A stretch of 64,000 nucleotides of DNA from Alkalihalobacillus sp. CinArs1 (GTDB taxonomy: Bacteria; Bacillota; Bacilli; Bacillales; Guptibacillaceae), in contig NZ_CANDOB010000004.1 in assembly GCF_947387515.1 (NCBI RefSeq), positions 1 to 64,000 of the forward strand, in the 5' to 3' direction. Each line of letters begins with the position of its first letter. Positions within the stretch are counted from its first letter, which is position 1. Under the pieces are notes generated by a model, which saw only the letters and a program-made list of their open reading frames with translations, was not told the origin of the DNA and ran no database searches. The translations under genes and the position numbers were made by a program. Positions 3,556 through 40,552 of this stretch are shown here, piece after piece.

Positions 3556-5256
3556 ATGAAGAATTTGATCGATCATTTACAACGTATAGATGGAAAAAGT
3601 TATAAAGCTTATAAAGATATAAGAGGGAGCTATGATTTCGAGAATTACACTCTTTCGATCGATTATGTACAAGGAGATCCATTCGCAAGCCCATCTAGAA
3701 TAAGAGCTATCATTCCTCGTAACAAAGCTAAGGTGAAGACTGAGTGGTTTGATGGTGACCAAAGGCGGATCAGGTTAGAGGATTTTATCGCAAGGAAGGT
3801 AGCGAAGTCCATTTATAAACACAAAGGAAATATCAAGGGTTCCGGTAAGAGTGGTACCTTTATCATTGATGCTCCTAAACAAAAAGTATTAGAACGTACA
3901 GCCGTGTCAGTAACAAAAACCGACATCACGATCTGTTTATCAGTGGGCTTACCAGCACAAGGTAGACGTGTGCTTGGTAGACAAGCCCAGCAAATGTTAA
4001 CGACCTATTTACGAGAGATTCTAAAAGCATCTATTTTTTCTCTAAATGAGGGTGAGGTAATTGAAGCCATTCATTTAGCGGATCAACAAGAAACGATTAG
4101 AATGTTCTTAAAAGATAGAGGGTACGTAGCGTTTATCGCGAACGGTGCCATACTGCCTCGAGAGAGTGGTATTAGCGATCGGCCGTTACAGAATAAAGCT
4201 GTTCCATTCAAGTCTCCGTCTAGCAAAGAAGTCTCGATCTCGATCCCCCATAAAGAAGAACCGATAAAAGGGATGGCGATCGAGAAAGGGATATCCCTCA
4301 TAGTAGGGGGCGGGTATCATGGCAAAAGTACCCTCTTGCATGCACTCGAGCACGGCGTTTATGATCATATTGCAGGTGATGGAAGAGAGTATGTGATCAC
4401 TGATGAACTAGCTATGAAAATTCGATCTGAAGATGGAAGAAAGGTGACAGGGGTAAATATCTCACCGTTTATTGAGAATTTACCTTTTGGGAAAGATACT
4501 CGTTCCTTCACAACAGAAAATGCTAGTGGAAGTACATCTCAGGCAGCTAATATAATAGAAGCAGTTGAGGCAGGCTGTCATGCACTGTTGATCGACGAAG
4601 ATACAAGTGCAACGAATTTTATGATTCGAGATGTTCGGATGCAGCAACTCGTCTCAAAAGACAAAGAGCCGATCACACCTTTTATTGACCGTGTACAACA
4701 ACTATATAACCAACATAGTGTTTCAACAGTACTCGTCATGGGAGGGTCAGGCGATTATTTCGATGTAGCCGATACGGTTATTTTGATGGAGAATTACCTT
4801 CCATATGATGTAACGAATGAGGCTAAAAGGATTTCAGCCGAGTCTACTACAGCTCGAAATAAAGAAGGTGGCGAGCTTTTCGGAGAGGTAGACCGTCGCC
4901 TTCCTCATAAATCTAGTTTAAATAGTCAAAAAGGGAAAAAGGCGAAGGTTTCTGCGAAAGGACTTCACCACATTCTATATGGCAATACTGATATTTCACT
5001 CCTTCAAGTCGAGCAGCTGATCGATCCGAGTCAGACGCGATTAGCTGCGGAAATTCTTCATTTTCTTGAAAGGAAGAACAAACTTGGAGACGTATCCGTG
5101 TCGGAGCTTTTGGATGCAGTTGAAAAACAAATGAATGATGAGGGAATCGGATCATTCTCTATGTTTGCCAATCAACATCCAGGTGATCTCGCTCGTATTA
5201 GAAGAACAGAGTTGGCAGCAGTATTAAATCGACTTAGAACATTGAAGATCGTCTAA
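3556..5256 (+). CDS. ABC-class predicted ATPase (COG3044 type)
   Basis: A 566-residue cytosolic P-loop protein of the 'predicted ATPase of the ABC class' family, whose function is unknown. An N-terminal domain of about 230 residues precedes the Walker A GGGYHGKST (near residue 253). The ABC-like motif region (FTTENASGSTSQA) and a Walker B-like LLIDEDTSATNF follow. It is a single polypeptide with no membrane segment, so it is not a transporter subunit. AAGGAGG stands 10 nt before the ATG. The gene is 35 bp upstream of queG in the same direction and may be co-transcribed. Confidence 0.85.
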   Translation: MKNLIDHLQRIDGKSYKAYKDIRGSYDFENYTLSIDYVQGDPFASPSRIRAIIPRNKAKVKTEWFDGDQRRIRLEDFIARKVAKSIYKHKGNIKGSGKSGTFIIDAPKQKVLERTAVSVTKTDITICLSVGLPAQGRRVLGRQAQQMLTTYLREILKASIFSLNEGEVIEAIHLADQQETIRMFLKDRGYVAFIANGAILPRESGISDRPLQNKAVPFKSPSSKEVSISIPHKEEPIKGMAIEKGISLIVGGGYHGKSTLLHALEHGVYDHIAGDGREYVITDELAMKIRSEDGRKVTGVNISPFIENLPFGKDTRSFTTENASGSTSQAANIIEAVEAGCHALLIDEDTSATNFMIRDVRMQQLVSKDKEPITPFIDRVQQLYNQHSVSTVLVMGGSGDYFDVADTVILMENYLPYDVTNEAKRISAESTTARNKEGGELFGEVDRRLPHKSSLNSQKGKKAKVSAKGLHHILYGNTDISLLQVEQLIDPSQTRLAAEILHFLERKNKLGDVSVSELLDAVEKQMNDEGIGSFSMFANQHPGDLARIRRTELAAVLNRLRTLKIV

Positions 5257-5291: not shown

Positions 5292-6431
5292 GTGACAAAC
5301 GCCCAGTTAAAGGAAGAGATCGTTGCATACAGTAAATCAATCGGAATCGATAAGATAGGTTTTGCTGCAGCTGATCCTTTCAAATCGCTCAAAGAGCGGT
5401 TGAAGCAACAGCAGCAGTTAGGTTATCAATCAGGGTTTGAAGAACCTGATATTGAGAAACGAACGGAGCCTGAGCTCTTGTTACGTGGCGCGACTACGAT
5501 CGTTTCGATCGCCATTGCATACCCATCAAAAATGAAGGATAGTCCAAGAAGTAAAAGAGGCGAACGGAGAGGTCTATTTTGTAGAGCGTCGTGGGGCGTC
5601 GATTATCATCACGTGTTAAGAGAAAAGCTCTCCCTTCTTGAATCATTTATAAAATCGAAAGTTCCAACTGCTCAAACAAGCTCAATGGTTGATACAGGCG
5701 AATTATCTGATCGAGCAGTAGCCGAACGAGCTGGACTTGGATTTACTGGGAAGAATACGATGCTGATTACGGAAGAGTTCGGTTCTTGGGTCTATCTTGG
5801 TGAGATGATCACAGATGTCTTTATAGAGCCGGATGAACCAGTGGAAGAAGGTTGTGGAGATTGTAATATTTGTGTAGATGCTTGTCCAACTGGAGCACTA
5901 GTTGAAGGTGGTCAGCTAAACGCAAGTAAATGCATTGCTTTCTTAACTCAAACTAAAGGTTTCCTTCCTGATGAGTATCGCTCAAAGTTAGGCAACAGAC
6001 TTTATGGATGTGATACATGTCAGCTGGTGTGTCCCAAAAACAAGGGGATCGACTTTCACCATCATCCTGAACTTGAACCAGATCCAGAAGTGGTGAAACC
6101 AAAGTTGATTCCACTGCTTACGATGAGTAATAGAGAATTTAAAGAGAAGTTTGGAAAAGCGGCTGGTTCATGGCGAGGGAAGAAGCCAATTCAACGAAAC
6201 GCCATTCTTGCTCTAGCGCATTACAAAGACGAAGCAGCGGTGGATACACTGATCGATTTGATGAGAAATGACCCACGACCTGTCATTAGAGGGACATCCG
6301 CTTGGGCCCTCGGAAAGATCGGTGGAAACAAGGCGTATGATGCCCTAATAAATGAGCAAATGAAAGAAAAAGACCAGGAAGCGGCAGATGAGATTGAAAA
6401 AGGGCTGTCTATGCTTCAAAATAAGTCTTAA
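5292..6431 (+). CDS. queG: Epoxyqueuosine reductase QueG
   Basis: A cobalamin- and iron-sulfur-dependent enzyme that reduces epoxyqueuosine to queuosine in the tRNA wobble position (B. subtilis YhbA). The sequence shows the cobalamin domain with the catalytic-Asp region (MVDTGELSDRAVAERAGLG) and two [4Fe-4S] clusters (CGDCNICVDACPTGA and CDTCQLVCPKNKG). A C-terminal HEAT-like repeat (RNAILALAHYKDEAAVDTLI) binds tRNA. I use the GTG at 5292, which has AAGGGAGGGAG at proper spacing. An ATG at 5271 would place that site inside the gene. It starts the same run (queG, ogt-type gene, yhbB, trmL) seen in B. subtilis as yhbA-yhbB-cspR. Confidence 0.95.
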   Translation: MTNAQLKEEIVAYSKSIGIDKIGFAAADPFKSLKERLKQQQQLGYQSGFEEPDIEKRTEPELLLRGATTIVSIAIAYPSKMKDSPRSKRGERRGLFCRASWGVDYHHVLREKLSLLESFIKSKVPTAQTSSMVDTGELSDRAVAERAGLGFTGKNTMLITEEFGSWVYLGEMITDVFIEPDEPVEEGCGDCNICVDACPTGALVEGGQLNASKCIAFLTQTKGFLPDEYRSKLGNRLYGCDTCQLVCPKNKGIDFHHHPELEPDPEVVKPKLIPLLTMSNREFKEKFGKAAGSWRGKKPIQRNAILALAHYKDEAAVDTLIDLMRNDPRPVIRGTSAWALGKIGGNKAYDALINEQMKEKDQEAADEIEKGLSMLQNKS

Positions 6432-24660: not shown

Positions 24661-25132
24661 TTCAATAGTTCTTTGAGAGTTCCTCAAGAGTTTCAATATC
24701 TCCATAATGCTCGTCTTCGTTTTTCAAGATGTCTAGTCAGGGTCTAAACGCCCACCTCCGCTTTTTGTATGTCCAGCTGCGACTCGCAGAAACTGCGATA
24801 TTTCACTCTTTCAACAGAACACAAAAGGCGTGTTCTATTTCAAGAGCTCCAATATCTCCGTTTCTAAACGCTCGTCTCCGCTTTTCGTATGTCCAGCTGC
24901 AGTGACCAGGTCCTCGATCGCTTCACCTTTAGGAATGAACACAAAGATCGTGTTCTTTCCTAAAGGCTCCAGCGCTTGTCGGTCCTAAACGGCTACCTTC
25001 GCTTTTCAAGATGTCCAGCTGCGGTGGGCAGAAACTGCGATATTTCACTCTTTCACCTGAACACAAAAAGCGTGTTCAAGTTCAAGAGTTCCAATATCTC
25101 CGTTTCTAACCGCCCACCTCCGCTTTTCAAGA
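24661..25132. repeat. Tandem array of ~121-bp palindromic elements, locus A
   Basis: Three full head-to-tail units begin with CGCTTTT at 24759, 24879 and 25000, and a fourth boundary is at 25121. The periods are 120, 121 and 121. A deleted 41-bp unit (24718) and a unit remnant (24661-24717) precede them. Each unit starts CGCTTTTC...TGTCCAGCTGC and has a central hairpin GAACAC/GTGTTC. Units 1 and 3 (type A) extend it with GATATT/AATATC and CTCTT/AAGAG. Unit 2 (type B) has CCTTTAGGAA/TTCCTAAAGG at the same place. The array is richer in GC than its surroundings and contains no gene. It fills the interval between the Ktr terminator and the SASP promoter. Confidence 0.9.
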
Positions 25133-38345: not shown

Positions 38346-39827
38346 ATGGAAAAAATTCTCGACATGAATCCTAAGGTAGCTGAATTCTTGAAAGGTAAGA
38401 AACAACTTTATATCAATGGTCAGTTTAAGGATTCGTTATCAGGAAGAACTTTCGACACGCTCAACCCCTCAACAGGTGAAGTGCTTGCAACAGTAAGTGA
38501 AGGAGTAAAAGAAGATATTGATGAAGCGGTAATGGCGGCTAGAAAGGCATTCGATAGCGGCCCTTGGTCTAAAATGTCAGCTTCAAAGAGAAGCAGAATA
38601 ATTTATAAGCTAGCTGATCTTATGGAAGAAAACAAAGAAGAGCTAGCGATGATTGATACGCTTGATAACGGTAAGCCGATCCGTGAAACGAAAAATGCAG
38701 ACGTGCCTCTAGCGATTGAGCATTTCCGCTACTACGCTGGATGGGCAACAAAAATTATGGGACAAACGATTCCAGTAAACGGTCCTTTCTTCAACTACAC
38801 GCGTCATGAAGCTCTTGGCGTTGTTGGACAGATCATTCCTTGGAACTTCCCGTTACTAATGGCTGCGTGGAAACTTGGTGCTGCTCTTGCAACAGGTTGT
38901 ACAGTTGTTCTTAAGCCAGCTGAGCAAACGCCTCTATCTGTGCTCTATCTTGCAGAGCTAATGGAAGAAGCAGGCTTCCCAGAAGGGGTTGTCAACATCG
39001 TTCCTGGTTACGGAGAAACAGCAGGAGATGCACTTGTAAAGCATCCTGACGTTGATAAGATCGCATTCACTGGCTCAACTGAAGTAGGTAAGTATATTAT
39101 GAACCAGGCGTCAAACGACCTTAAGAGAGTAACTCTTGAGCTTGGTGGTAAGTCACCTAATATCATTCTGCCAGACGCAGACATGACAAAAGCGATTCCT
39201 GGAGCACTAAGCGGTATTATGTTTAACCAGGGACAGGTTTGCTGTGCAGGTTCTAGACTCTTTATTCAAAAGAAAGCATATGACAATGTGATGGCTGACC
39301 TCGTTAGCCACAGCCAGAAGATTAAGCAAGGTTCAGGTCTTGATCCGTCTACTGAAATGGGACCTCTTGTTTCAGATGAGCAGCATAAAAAAGTTCTTGA
39401 GTATATCTCAAAAGGTCAAGATGAAGGTGCCGAGCTTCTTACTGGTGGACAAGTTCCTTATGAGAACGGCTACTATGTTCAACCGACGATCTTCTCAGAT
39501 GTTGATGATAAGATGACGATCGCAAAAGAAGAAATCTTTGGGCCAGTTGTAGCAGCTATGCCGTTTGAGGACTTAGATGAAGTTGTGGAGCGTGCAAACA
39601 ACTCTAACTATGGTCTTGCAGCTGGACTATGGACTGAGAACTTGAAGTCTGCTCACTACGTAGCGAATCGCATTAAAGCAGGTACAGTTTGGGTGAACTG
39701 CTACAATGCATTCGATGCTGCATCTCCATTCGGAGGATACAAGCAGTCTGGTATCGGAAGAGAAATGGGCTCTTACGCGTTGGATAACTATACTGAAGTT
39801 AAGAGCGTGTGGATCAACCTTAAATAA
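38346..39827 (+). CDS. NAD(P)-dependent aldehyde dehydrogenase (DhaS-like)
   Basis: A 493-residue aldehyde dehydrogenase of the class 1/2 type, oxidising aldehydes to acids with NAD(P). The general base is in LELGGKSPNIILPD, the catalytic Cys in MFNQGQVCCAGSRL, the nucleotide loop in FTGSTEVGKYI and the oxyanion Asn in PWNFPL. Closest in feel to B. subtilis DhaS and AldA/YcbD enzymes; specificity is not readable. ATGGAGGG-type site stands before the ATG. It has its own promoter and terminator and is a monocistronic unit. It is absent from the collinear B. subtilis yha order, so it was probably inserted here. Confidence 0.93.
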   Translation: MEKILDMNPKVAEFLKGKKQLYINGQFKDSLSGRTFDTLNPSTGEVLATVSEGVKEDIDEAVMAARKAFDSGPWSKMSASKRSRIIYKLADLMEENKEELAMIDTLDNGKPIRETKNADVPLAIEHFRYYAGWATKIMGQTIPVNGPFFNYTRHEALGVVGQIIPWNFPLLMAAWKLGAALATGCTVVLKPAEQTPLSVLYLAELMEEAGFPEGVVNIVPGYGETAGDALVKHPDVDKIAFTGSTEVGKYIMNQASNDLKRVTLELGGKSPNIILPDADMTKAIPGALSGIMFNQGQVCCAGSRLFIQKKAYDNVMADLVSHSQKIKQGSGLDPSTEMGPLVSDEQHKKVLEYISKGQDEGAELLTGGQVPYENGYYVQPTIFSDVDDKMTIAKEEIFGPVVAAMPFEDLDEVVERANNSNYGLAAGLWTENLKSAHYVANRIKAGTVWVNCYNAFDAASPFGGYKQSGIGREMGSYALDNYTEVKSVWINLK

Positions 39828-39838
39828 GTTTAATAACA

Positions 39839-39872
39839 AAAACGCTAGTCCGAATTGGACTAGCGTTTTTTT
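39839..39872 (+). terminator. Terminator of the aldehyde dehydrogenase
   Basis: AACGCTAGTCC / GGACTAGCGTT with seven T. Confidence 0.93.
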
Positions 39873-39898
39873 GATTTTGATCATTTTAAAAGATTCGA

Positions 39899-40223
39899 GA
39901 GGCTGTTGGGACTGATGCGTCCGCAGAAACTGCGAGATTTCACTCTTTCCGTTTCTAAACGCTCGCCTTCGCTTTTCATTGTCTAGCTCCAGTGGGCTAA
40001 ATCCTCCGGCTGTTTCGCCCCCTCGGTTGAGACCAAAATCGTCTCATCCTCACGGGCTCCAACATCCTACGGATTTAAAACGCGCCCACTTCCGCTTTTC
40101 GAATGTCCAGCTGCAGTGGGCAGGCCCTCGATCGCTTCACCTTTTCGATTGAACACAAAGAGCGTGTTCATTCGAAAAGGTTCCAGCGCTTGTCGGGCCT
40201 AAGCGCCCACTTCCGCTTTTCAT
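39899..40223. repeat. Tandem array of ~121-bp palindromic elements, locus B
   Basis: Two full units start with CGCTTTTC at 39970 and 40093, with a third boundary at 40214 (periods 123 and 121). A shortened type A unit (39899-39969) comes first, which keeps GCAGAAACTGCGA and CGTTTCTAAACGC but lacks the central hairpin. The last unit is type B and is very similar to unit 2 of locus A (CCTCGATCGCTTCACCTTT, CCAGCGCTTGTCGG). The first unit has GAGAC/GTCTC in place of GAACAC/GTGTTC, so pairing is kept while sequence changes. The last boundary provides the TCA that encodes the stop codon of the minus-strand gene at 40220. Confidence 0.9.
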
Positions 40224-40405
40224 CTTTGCAATACAATCAATTTACCGGTTGAGGAAACGACTCTTGCGGGTTTGGATTCGAAGCCTTTTTCGTTTAGGAT
40301 TTCTTGGCCTATTTTTTTTGCGTCTTTGTCGTTTTGGGCTTCGAAGCTGTCGTCTAGGATGGTGGTTCCGTCTTTTTCAAATGCTGTGATAATGTACTTT
40401 TCCAT
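40220..40405 (-). CDS. yhzD: YhzD-like small protein (61 aa)
   Basis: A 61-residue soluble protein that fits the YhzD family by length, opening (MEKYIITAFEKDGTTILDDSF) and place in the yha cluster. It looks like a small alpha/beta fold; no function is known. AGGAGGGACA lies before the ATG. Its stop codon TGA is formed by the edge of the adjoining repeat array, so the array reaches the last codon of this gene. The residues just before the stop (KLIVLQR) read as part of the normal fold, so little or nothing has been lost. Confidence 0.7.
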   Translation of the reverse strand: MEKYIITAFEKDGTTILDDSFEAQNDKDAKKIGQEILNEKGFESKPARVVSSTGKLIVLQR

Positions 40406-40552
40406 GTGTTGTCCCTCCTACTAGTTATAGTTATTATTCTACCGATTCGATTTGGTATTGTCACTTTTTTCAGAAAAAACGAATCTTTTAAGAGTGAGAA
40501 ACGTTATAGTAGTATGAGTGGATAATCGATTTTCGAAATAGGGGGGAAGTAG

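Follow-up and report, generated by a model that had tools for sequence, protein, structure and literature searches.

A hairpin-forming DNA repeat in short tandem arrays of the Bacillales: DNA-like pairing, polar arrays and turnover of whole units

The window, a stretch of 64,000 nucleotides from Alkalihalobacillus sp. CinArs1, carries at a site here called locus B a short tandem array of hairpin-forming units that recurs in the same genome, in its genus and in many genomes of the order Bacillales. The units share one covarying architecture and pair in a DNA-like manner, their arrays are polar with a flush 3' junction at stop codons, and whole units turn over between close genomes. We interpret the unit as a non-autonomous, hairpin-forming mobile DNA repeat of the Bacillales, kept in short tandem arrays and folding into a rod on which some factor may act, an interpretation whose chances we judge to be about even. 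Taken together, the results support a DNA hairpin repeat that is mobile or was so until recently, with recombination among its units in place.

Results

Layout and folding of locus B

The array (39922-40221) comprises a truncated leader and two full units (Table 1), whose ends recur at 39959, 40082 and 40203 and so give the spacings of 123 and 121 nt described in a first-pass annotation of this DNA. No unit sequence was recognisable by eye at 39899-39921. The upstream frame is, to judge from its sequence, putatively aldehyde dehydrogenase-like. Sequence comparison confirmed that the first full unit carries GAGAC/GTCTC where the second has GAACAC/GTGTTC. The outer stems of locus B and locus A were likewise said to differ in bases while keeping their pairing, which they do, although the locus B arm reads CCTTTTCGAT and not CCTTTTCGAA; at locus B the outer and inner stems are separated by a T-T mismatch. 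Folded as DNA, unit 2 reached -32.9 kcal/mol compared to a shuffled mean of -14.9 (z -7.0; none of 200 shuffles as good), while the fold of unit 1 was weaker (-19.3 compared to -10.8; z -3.5; 1 of 200 shuffles as good). The leader had been described as lacking exactly the central hairpin. Alignment by eye with the first A-type unit of locus A instead places a 46-nt gap that spares 8 nt of the left arm of the hairpin and removes the right arm together with 12 nt past it, and slippage is a possible origin of this deletion. Rfam covariance models run over 39500-40500 gave ten matches at E values up to 10, none of them at the gathering score. The plasmid and phage collections contained no match to the element, which says little because near records may be left out of those collections.

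Table 1. Features of loci B and A, with positions in the window
Feature	Position	Strand	Basis
Upstream ORF, 493 aa	38346..39827	+	ORF listing
Intrinsic-terminator-like hairpin between upstream gene and array	39838..39870	+	consensus match only; also inverted repeat I1
Locus B leader, 5'-truncated unit, A type, 46-nt internal deletion	39922..39977	+	by eye
Locus B full unit 1, C type, GAGAC/GTCTC hairpin	39980..40100	+	model score 87.3 bits
Locus B full unit 2, B type, GAACAC/GTGTTC hairpin	40104..40221	+	model score 135.7 bits
Convergent 61-aa reading frame; stop codon 40220-40222 overlaps array 3' end	40220..40405	-	ORF listing
Locus A leader stub, short	24725..24765	+	sequence comparison
Locus A unit, A type	24770..24885	+	unit extraction, model match
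Locus A unit, B type	24890..25006	+	unit extraction, model match
Locus A unit, A type, ends upstream of putative alpha/beta SASP-like gene	25012..25127	+	model match

Copies in the genome, the genus and the order

Locus B had been presented as a second array of the same element; the repeat is real, but the locus is not merely a second copy, as about 18 arrays are present in the genome. The locus B sequence gave 46 blast matches in its own genome and its last unit 50 at E values up to 1, which resolve unit by unit into about 18 arrays (19 clusters in a profile search of those loci). After removal of two false units from the 45 extracted, 43 units of 111-129 nt with inner types A, B and C remained, and 41 of these were aligned, leaving out L050_2, which has no outer stem, and L041_6, with 12 extra nt in its loop. 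In this latter unit (L041:3114-3242), 12 nt of loop and inner arm are duplicated in tandem within the loop (AAAAATCGTGTT).

The covariance model built from the 41 units (117 positions, 38 pairs) was run with at most 150 candidates scored per genome. It matched 45 times in the own genome, 54-101 times in every one of 13 congeners and twice in the single genome from a different genus of the same family. At the order level, the element was detected at E values up to 1e-6 in 208 of 299 genomes and 80 of 116 genera, with per-genome counts being lower bounds at a maximum of 12 scored candidates per genome; 38 element-bearing genomes reached this maximum, each of their 12 scored candidates being an element. 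Scanning named genomes with a sequence pattern returned at least 118 stretches, including ones from Rossellomorea, Neobacillus, Metabacillus, Shouchella, Planococcus, Lysinibacillus and Sporosarcina. Genomes of the genus carry tens of copies each, and 208 of the 299 genomes sampled across the order have the element, yet its locus B unit fits no model of Rfam 15.

The genus from which the window comes is probably Pseudalkalibacillus, since a P. hwajinpoensis contig matches it at 75-77% DNA identity in three blocks, each 1.1-1.8 kb long. Locus A (24725-25127) lies upstream of a putative alpha/beta SASP-like gene; it corresponds to site Y below, where all five congeners examined have an array with a different set of units. 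In the congener G011, single units were also seen in 23S-5S rRNA spacers (L287-L291), antisense to the rRNA and just past the 3' end of the 23S gene, with the rRNA recognised by eye in the five copies shown and the same 3-kb region found by blast at L292 and L293.

Structure and covariation

As a single DNA strand, the unit can fold into an elongated rod in which four helices are joined by conserved internal loops and capped by a 7-nt end loop. The whole unit is one interrupted palindrome, with just 3 bp pairing at its extremities. Next to the hairpin, the internal loop has an unpaired TC on one side and TCC on the other, both invariant in the 41 units. The structure tested for covariation was the fold of unit 2 with three doubtful pairs removed, and it tends to beat slid versions of itself for unit 2's sake because it was taken from that fold. 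In the 41 own-genome units, 91.0% of 1547 pair cells were paired and 308 were double-changed, with 28 of the 38 pairs altered on both sides. The covariation score of 0.491 was reached by none of 500 column shuffles (0.181), and sliding the partners gave no more than 0.142. Among the named genera (145 distinct rows from the best 150 of 189 matches), 90.0% of 5428 cells were paired, 1551 were double-changed and the score rose to 0.653, compared to 0.168 shuffled and at most 0.127 slid; these rows were fitted to the model and lean towards its structure, whereas sequence alone guided the alignment of the 41 units. The number of further pair types was unremarkable, being reached by 73 of 500 shuffles for the 41 units and 178 of 500 for the named genera. 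The first-pass annotation had proposed selection on a folded strand and a covariation check across many units, and the check, made here with shuffles and slid partners, agrees with this proposal, as covariation stands far above both controls. An outer stem (P1) common to the units of one array appeared likely by eye, but was equalled in 224 of 2000 permutations and was dropped.

Pairing at the level of DNA or RNA

Whether the folded strand is DNA or RNA had been left open, and the mismatches favour DNA. On an RNA strand kept for its fold, G-U would be tolerated, which predicts many more G-T than C-A cells, with the opposite imbalance when transcription uses the other strand. We counted wobble pairs in 144 distinct genus-level units (from the best 150 of 182), type by type, over pairs that are at least 80% Watson-Crick within their type. 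Of 4874 cells, 16 were G-T, 38 were C-A and 68 held some other mismatch, beside 649 double changes. A looser count on the same basis (from the best 150 of 182) gave 27 G-T and 154 C-A among 5457 cells, a C-A surplus that probably includes fixed A-type mismatches. For the named genera (from the best 150 of 189), the G-U types summed to 46 of 5428 cells. T-box leaders of the same genus served as a control (25 of the 30 loci returned, picked by length class as sets of 14 and 11) and gave 88 G-T and 7 C-A of 806 cells in one set, and 63 and 11 of 540 in the second. The G-T share is thus 0.3-0.8% of cells in the element (genus and named sets) compared to about 11% in T-boxes, a contrast that is somewhat flattering in size, although clear in direction, because the T-box structures came from RNAalifold, which accepts G-U. 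With G-T nearly absent and in no excess over C-A, DNA is favoured over RNA. The pairing is kept as Watson-Crick on both strands, either as a DNA hairpin or with one arm copied from the other. Such a wobble-pair test is a simple way to separate DNA-level from RNA-level structure in repeats.

Array polarity and gene ends

In the own genome, the first unit is incomplete in 16 of 19 arrays, being truncated in 10 and a stub in 6, and 17 of 19 have a clean 3' end. In the congeners, leaving out two duplicates and one edge array, 39 of 45 begin with a partial unit or stub and 44 of 45 end cleanly. The named loci, eight of whose arrays were left out as edge arrays, were unused for polarity because they were fetched by a pattern spanning the unit junction.

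A simple ORF finder placed a stop codon facing the 3' end in 26 of the 52 arrays of the own genome and G011, and 20 of these 26 stop codons lie -4 to +5 nt from the unit end (the others at -21 in one case and at 46-614 in five); the cases are partly non-independent, some sites being the same gene in both genomes (by eye), and a solitary fragment (L049, + strand) is counted among the 26. At locus B, the 61-aa frame, with its stop codon overlapping the end of the array, escaped the finder. On the 5' side, a stop codon faces the array in 33 cases, none closer than 32 nt. Among the named genera, with 23 of 98 arrays skipped, 29 of 40 3'-facing stop codons fall at -9 to +6 nt, while none of 48 5'-facing ones lies within 10 nt. 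Because the model can miss a short 5' stub and thereby overstate the distance, 5' distances were re-measured to the stub, which left 0 of 33 (own genome and G011) and 0 of 52 (named, unfiltered) within 10 nt of a stop codon, and 0 of 33 and 4 of 52 when 15 nt more stub was allowed. Read on the mRNA strand, the junction consists of the stop codon, 0-5 nt and then GAAAAGCGGAAG or close variants. This stop-codon rule poses a sharp question, namely whether it reflects insertion choice or selection.

Arrays lie upstream of a same-direction frame in 26 of 52 cases in the own genome and G011 and in 34 of 75 in the named genera, a few of these being misassigned, and several start-codon-facing arrays stop shortly before extended -10-like promoters (by eye). 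At L046:4757, a neighbouring reading frame enters the array by about 21 nt, so that the array end may there have become coding sequence. At L049:3177-3225, a unit fragment is oriented against the L049 array, the two copies standing head to head, and 1 nt separates the 3' end of the fragment from the stop codon of the neighbour. In G011, whose origin was placed near 2.67 Mb by GC skew, 24 arrays run with the fork and 7 against it (sorted by hand, with the seven copies in rRNA spacers and a site close to the terminus left out), a bias not used as evidence because it was not separated from gene direction.

Turnover of units between close genomes

In the blocks around array sites X and Y, the congeners G008 and G009 are 94-97% identical to G011. 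At site Y, inspection by eye showed one unit more in G011 than in G008 with otherwise matching junctions, and in G009 the leader and the last unit differ. At site X, the unit sets differ among all three genomes (by eye), and that of G009 includes a chimeric unit (L252:5625-5739) whose 5' and 3' halves come from different G011-like units joined at the loop. The pairing between the two halves of this unit is broken (by eye), and recombination at the loop therefore seems to create broken units. Two further congeners at 84-88% identity to G011 (G013 and G014) have other unit sets and orders (by eye). Sites X and Y carry arrays in all five species compared, suggesting that insertion at new sites is rare or old. 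Such fast turnover of units beside conserved genes is a natural assay for the moving or repair of structured DNA.

Locus B is occupied in six species (G000, which is the own genome, G002, G003, G004, G012 and, with a truncated copy, G007), and the occupied forms share the same 3' junction with differing 5' ends. By eye, no unit was present at this site in G005, G006, G008, G009, G010, G011, G013 and G014. No clear target-site duplication was apparent by eye between occupied and unoccupied forms, whose flanks have diverged, and the empty sites could equally be explained by loss.

Search for mobilising machinery

A RAYT-like transposase had been suggested as a possible actor on the units, and the search for one did not support this. 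The own genome has two Y1 transposase matches, and the 8-kb loci around them contain no significant unit (best E 0.38). Instead, by eye, the two Y1 genes (L055:3050-4550 and L056:3200-4150) adjoin short palindromes of their own, of the GGGACAGG / CCTGTCCC and GGTGACAGGCACC / GAGTGAGGTGC types, which look like separate REP families. Across the 299 genomes, element and Y1 occur together in 166 and both lack a match in 38, and 53 have Y1 without the element; the remaining 42, out of 208 with the element, have no Y1 match. This association is weakly positive (odds ratio 2.8, p = 0.0002, kinship not corrected) and leaves some room for a Y1 role. Among the 38 genomes whose 12 scored candidates were without exception elements, seven gave no Y1 match, one of them (G167) being only 80% complete. 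RAYT was rejected as the mover on the grounds that no significant unit lies beside the two Y1 genes of the own genome, the REP tag is lacking and 42 of the 208 element-bearing genomes gave no Y1 match. Copying by a resident reverse transcriptase was rejected as well, the own genome being without an RVT_1 match. RVT_1 gave no match in 8 of 14 element-bearing genomes examined, the own genome and G011 included, and five of these eight (G027, G057, G094, G120 and G199) also had no Y1 match. Neither thus seems to be needed for persistence of the element, and a past or distant source of Y1 or reverse transcriptase is possible.

Discussion

What the first-pass annotation had observed is largely real, and its interpretation is partly supported. 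Under the mobile-repeat interpretation, the single-stranded rod would be the target on which some factor acts, presumably an enzyme that, working in trans, cuts or recombines the rod. Founding insertions may be copied from the 3' end and halt at random within an earlier unit, and later gain, loss and exchange of units may proceed by recombination between units. Pairing would then persist because only hairpin-forming units spread. A bolder version, which we hold tentatively and regard as doubtful, is that the arrays represent an order-wide new class of mobile single-stranded-DNA hairpin cassettes served by a novel enzyme, with copying from a fixed 3' end at stop codons or promoter edges, ending inside a unit on the 5' side, and cassette-like swapping of units. 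Against any mobile-element reading stands the failure to find a mobilising gene among the Y1 and RVT_1 matches sought.

The strongest rival is a use to the host at gene ends, in which the hairpins would be boundary elements that help at gene ends or promoters through protection of mRNA 3' ends, insulation, or supercoil or cruciform sites. The stop codons set within a few nucleotides of array 3' ends (20 of 26, and 29 of 40 in named genera) fit such a role, as do the several other arrays ending just before extended -10-like promoters. However, about half of the arrays lie upstream of a same-direction frame, the number of units varies between close species and eight congeners do without a unit at locus B, so that we consider host use unlikely as the explanation, while noting that it is compatible with the mobile-element reading. 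An alternative explanation is that template switching perfects the palindromes and ordinary recombination then keeps the units alike, with neither selection on structure nor a dedicated enzyme. This would account for double changes without G-T intermediates and for the recombinant unit of G009 at site X, but perfecting would erase both the unpaired TC and TCC that are invariant at fixed places in 41 units and the rod that is conserved across genera, and we rate this explanation as quite unlikely.

A structured RNA, whether an sRNA or a cis element, would be consistent with the extended fold and with the copies in the 23S-5S spacer. We regard it as highly improbable in view of the scarcity of G-T pairs relative to T-boxes, their lack of excess over C-A and the absence of an Rfam model at gathering score over locus B. 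Movement as a REP/REPIN-type repeat by the RAYT-like Y1 transposases of the genome, suggested by a high-copy intergenic hairpin in a genome with two Y1 matches and by the weak co-occurrence of the two, is very unlikely given units without a GTAG/CGTC tag, Y1 loci without a significant unit and element-rich genomes without a Y1 match.

REP, REPIN and BIME elements lie close to gene ends. The element resembles them as high-copy intergenic hairpin DNA without coding capacity. It differs from REP with RAYT in having no unit beside the two Y1 genes of its own genome, and from REP/REPIN in that a GTAG or CGTC tag occurs in the first 14 nt of none of 144 distinct units (from the best 150 of 182); for the tag complements in the final 14 nt of these same units, the counts are 5 of 144 for CTAC and 0 of 144 for GACG. 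Its length of about 117 nt, with four stacked helices in tandem head-to-tail order, also sets it apart from the REP palindrome, which the available text of PMC3733652 puts at 20-40 bp. No named family was found for the repeat, Rfam, REP tag and nearby RAYT all being negative. The literature searched, with subscription journals mostly outside it, held no description of the unit, nor did the accessible parts of PMC2267715, PMC3733652, PMC4666352, PMC6542083 and PMC2864571, and a text search for six unit strings returned only publications unrelated by title.

Among repeats of similar size, bcr1-bcr18 are described in the accessible part of PMC6542083 as 100-400 bp repeats of the Bacillus cereus group, the first of which is said there to have mobile features and to be restricted to that group, with BCR mobility tied to a TTTAT motif. 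The element is like them a repeat of a similar size class in a Bacillus group but occurs in 80 of 116 genera, a distinction drawn from the descriptions alone. MITEs, given as 70-300 bp in the available text of PMC3733652, are likewise non-coding and include the element in their size range, but in the element only 3 bp pair at the ends instead of terminal inverted repeats of 15-30 bp in the usual sense, and no clear target duplication was seen by eye at locus B, where the flanks have diverged. Bacillaceae-1 RNA (RF01690, 67 positions) is similarly a hairpin repeat of Bacillaceae and is found inside some of these arrays, but it differs in sequence and size and sits nested, on the other strand, within units. 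Across the 64 kb of 8 named loci, the gathering score is passed by two RF01690 matches, both in insertions inside long units. Matches inside units, on the opposite strand and next to the inner helix, were seen at L156:6302-6367 and 6060-6127 and at L177:4965-5027 and 5142-5204, those in L177 being below the gathering score, and Bacillaceae-1 may itself be a mobile hairpin.
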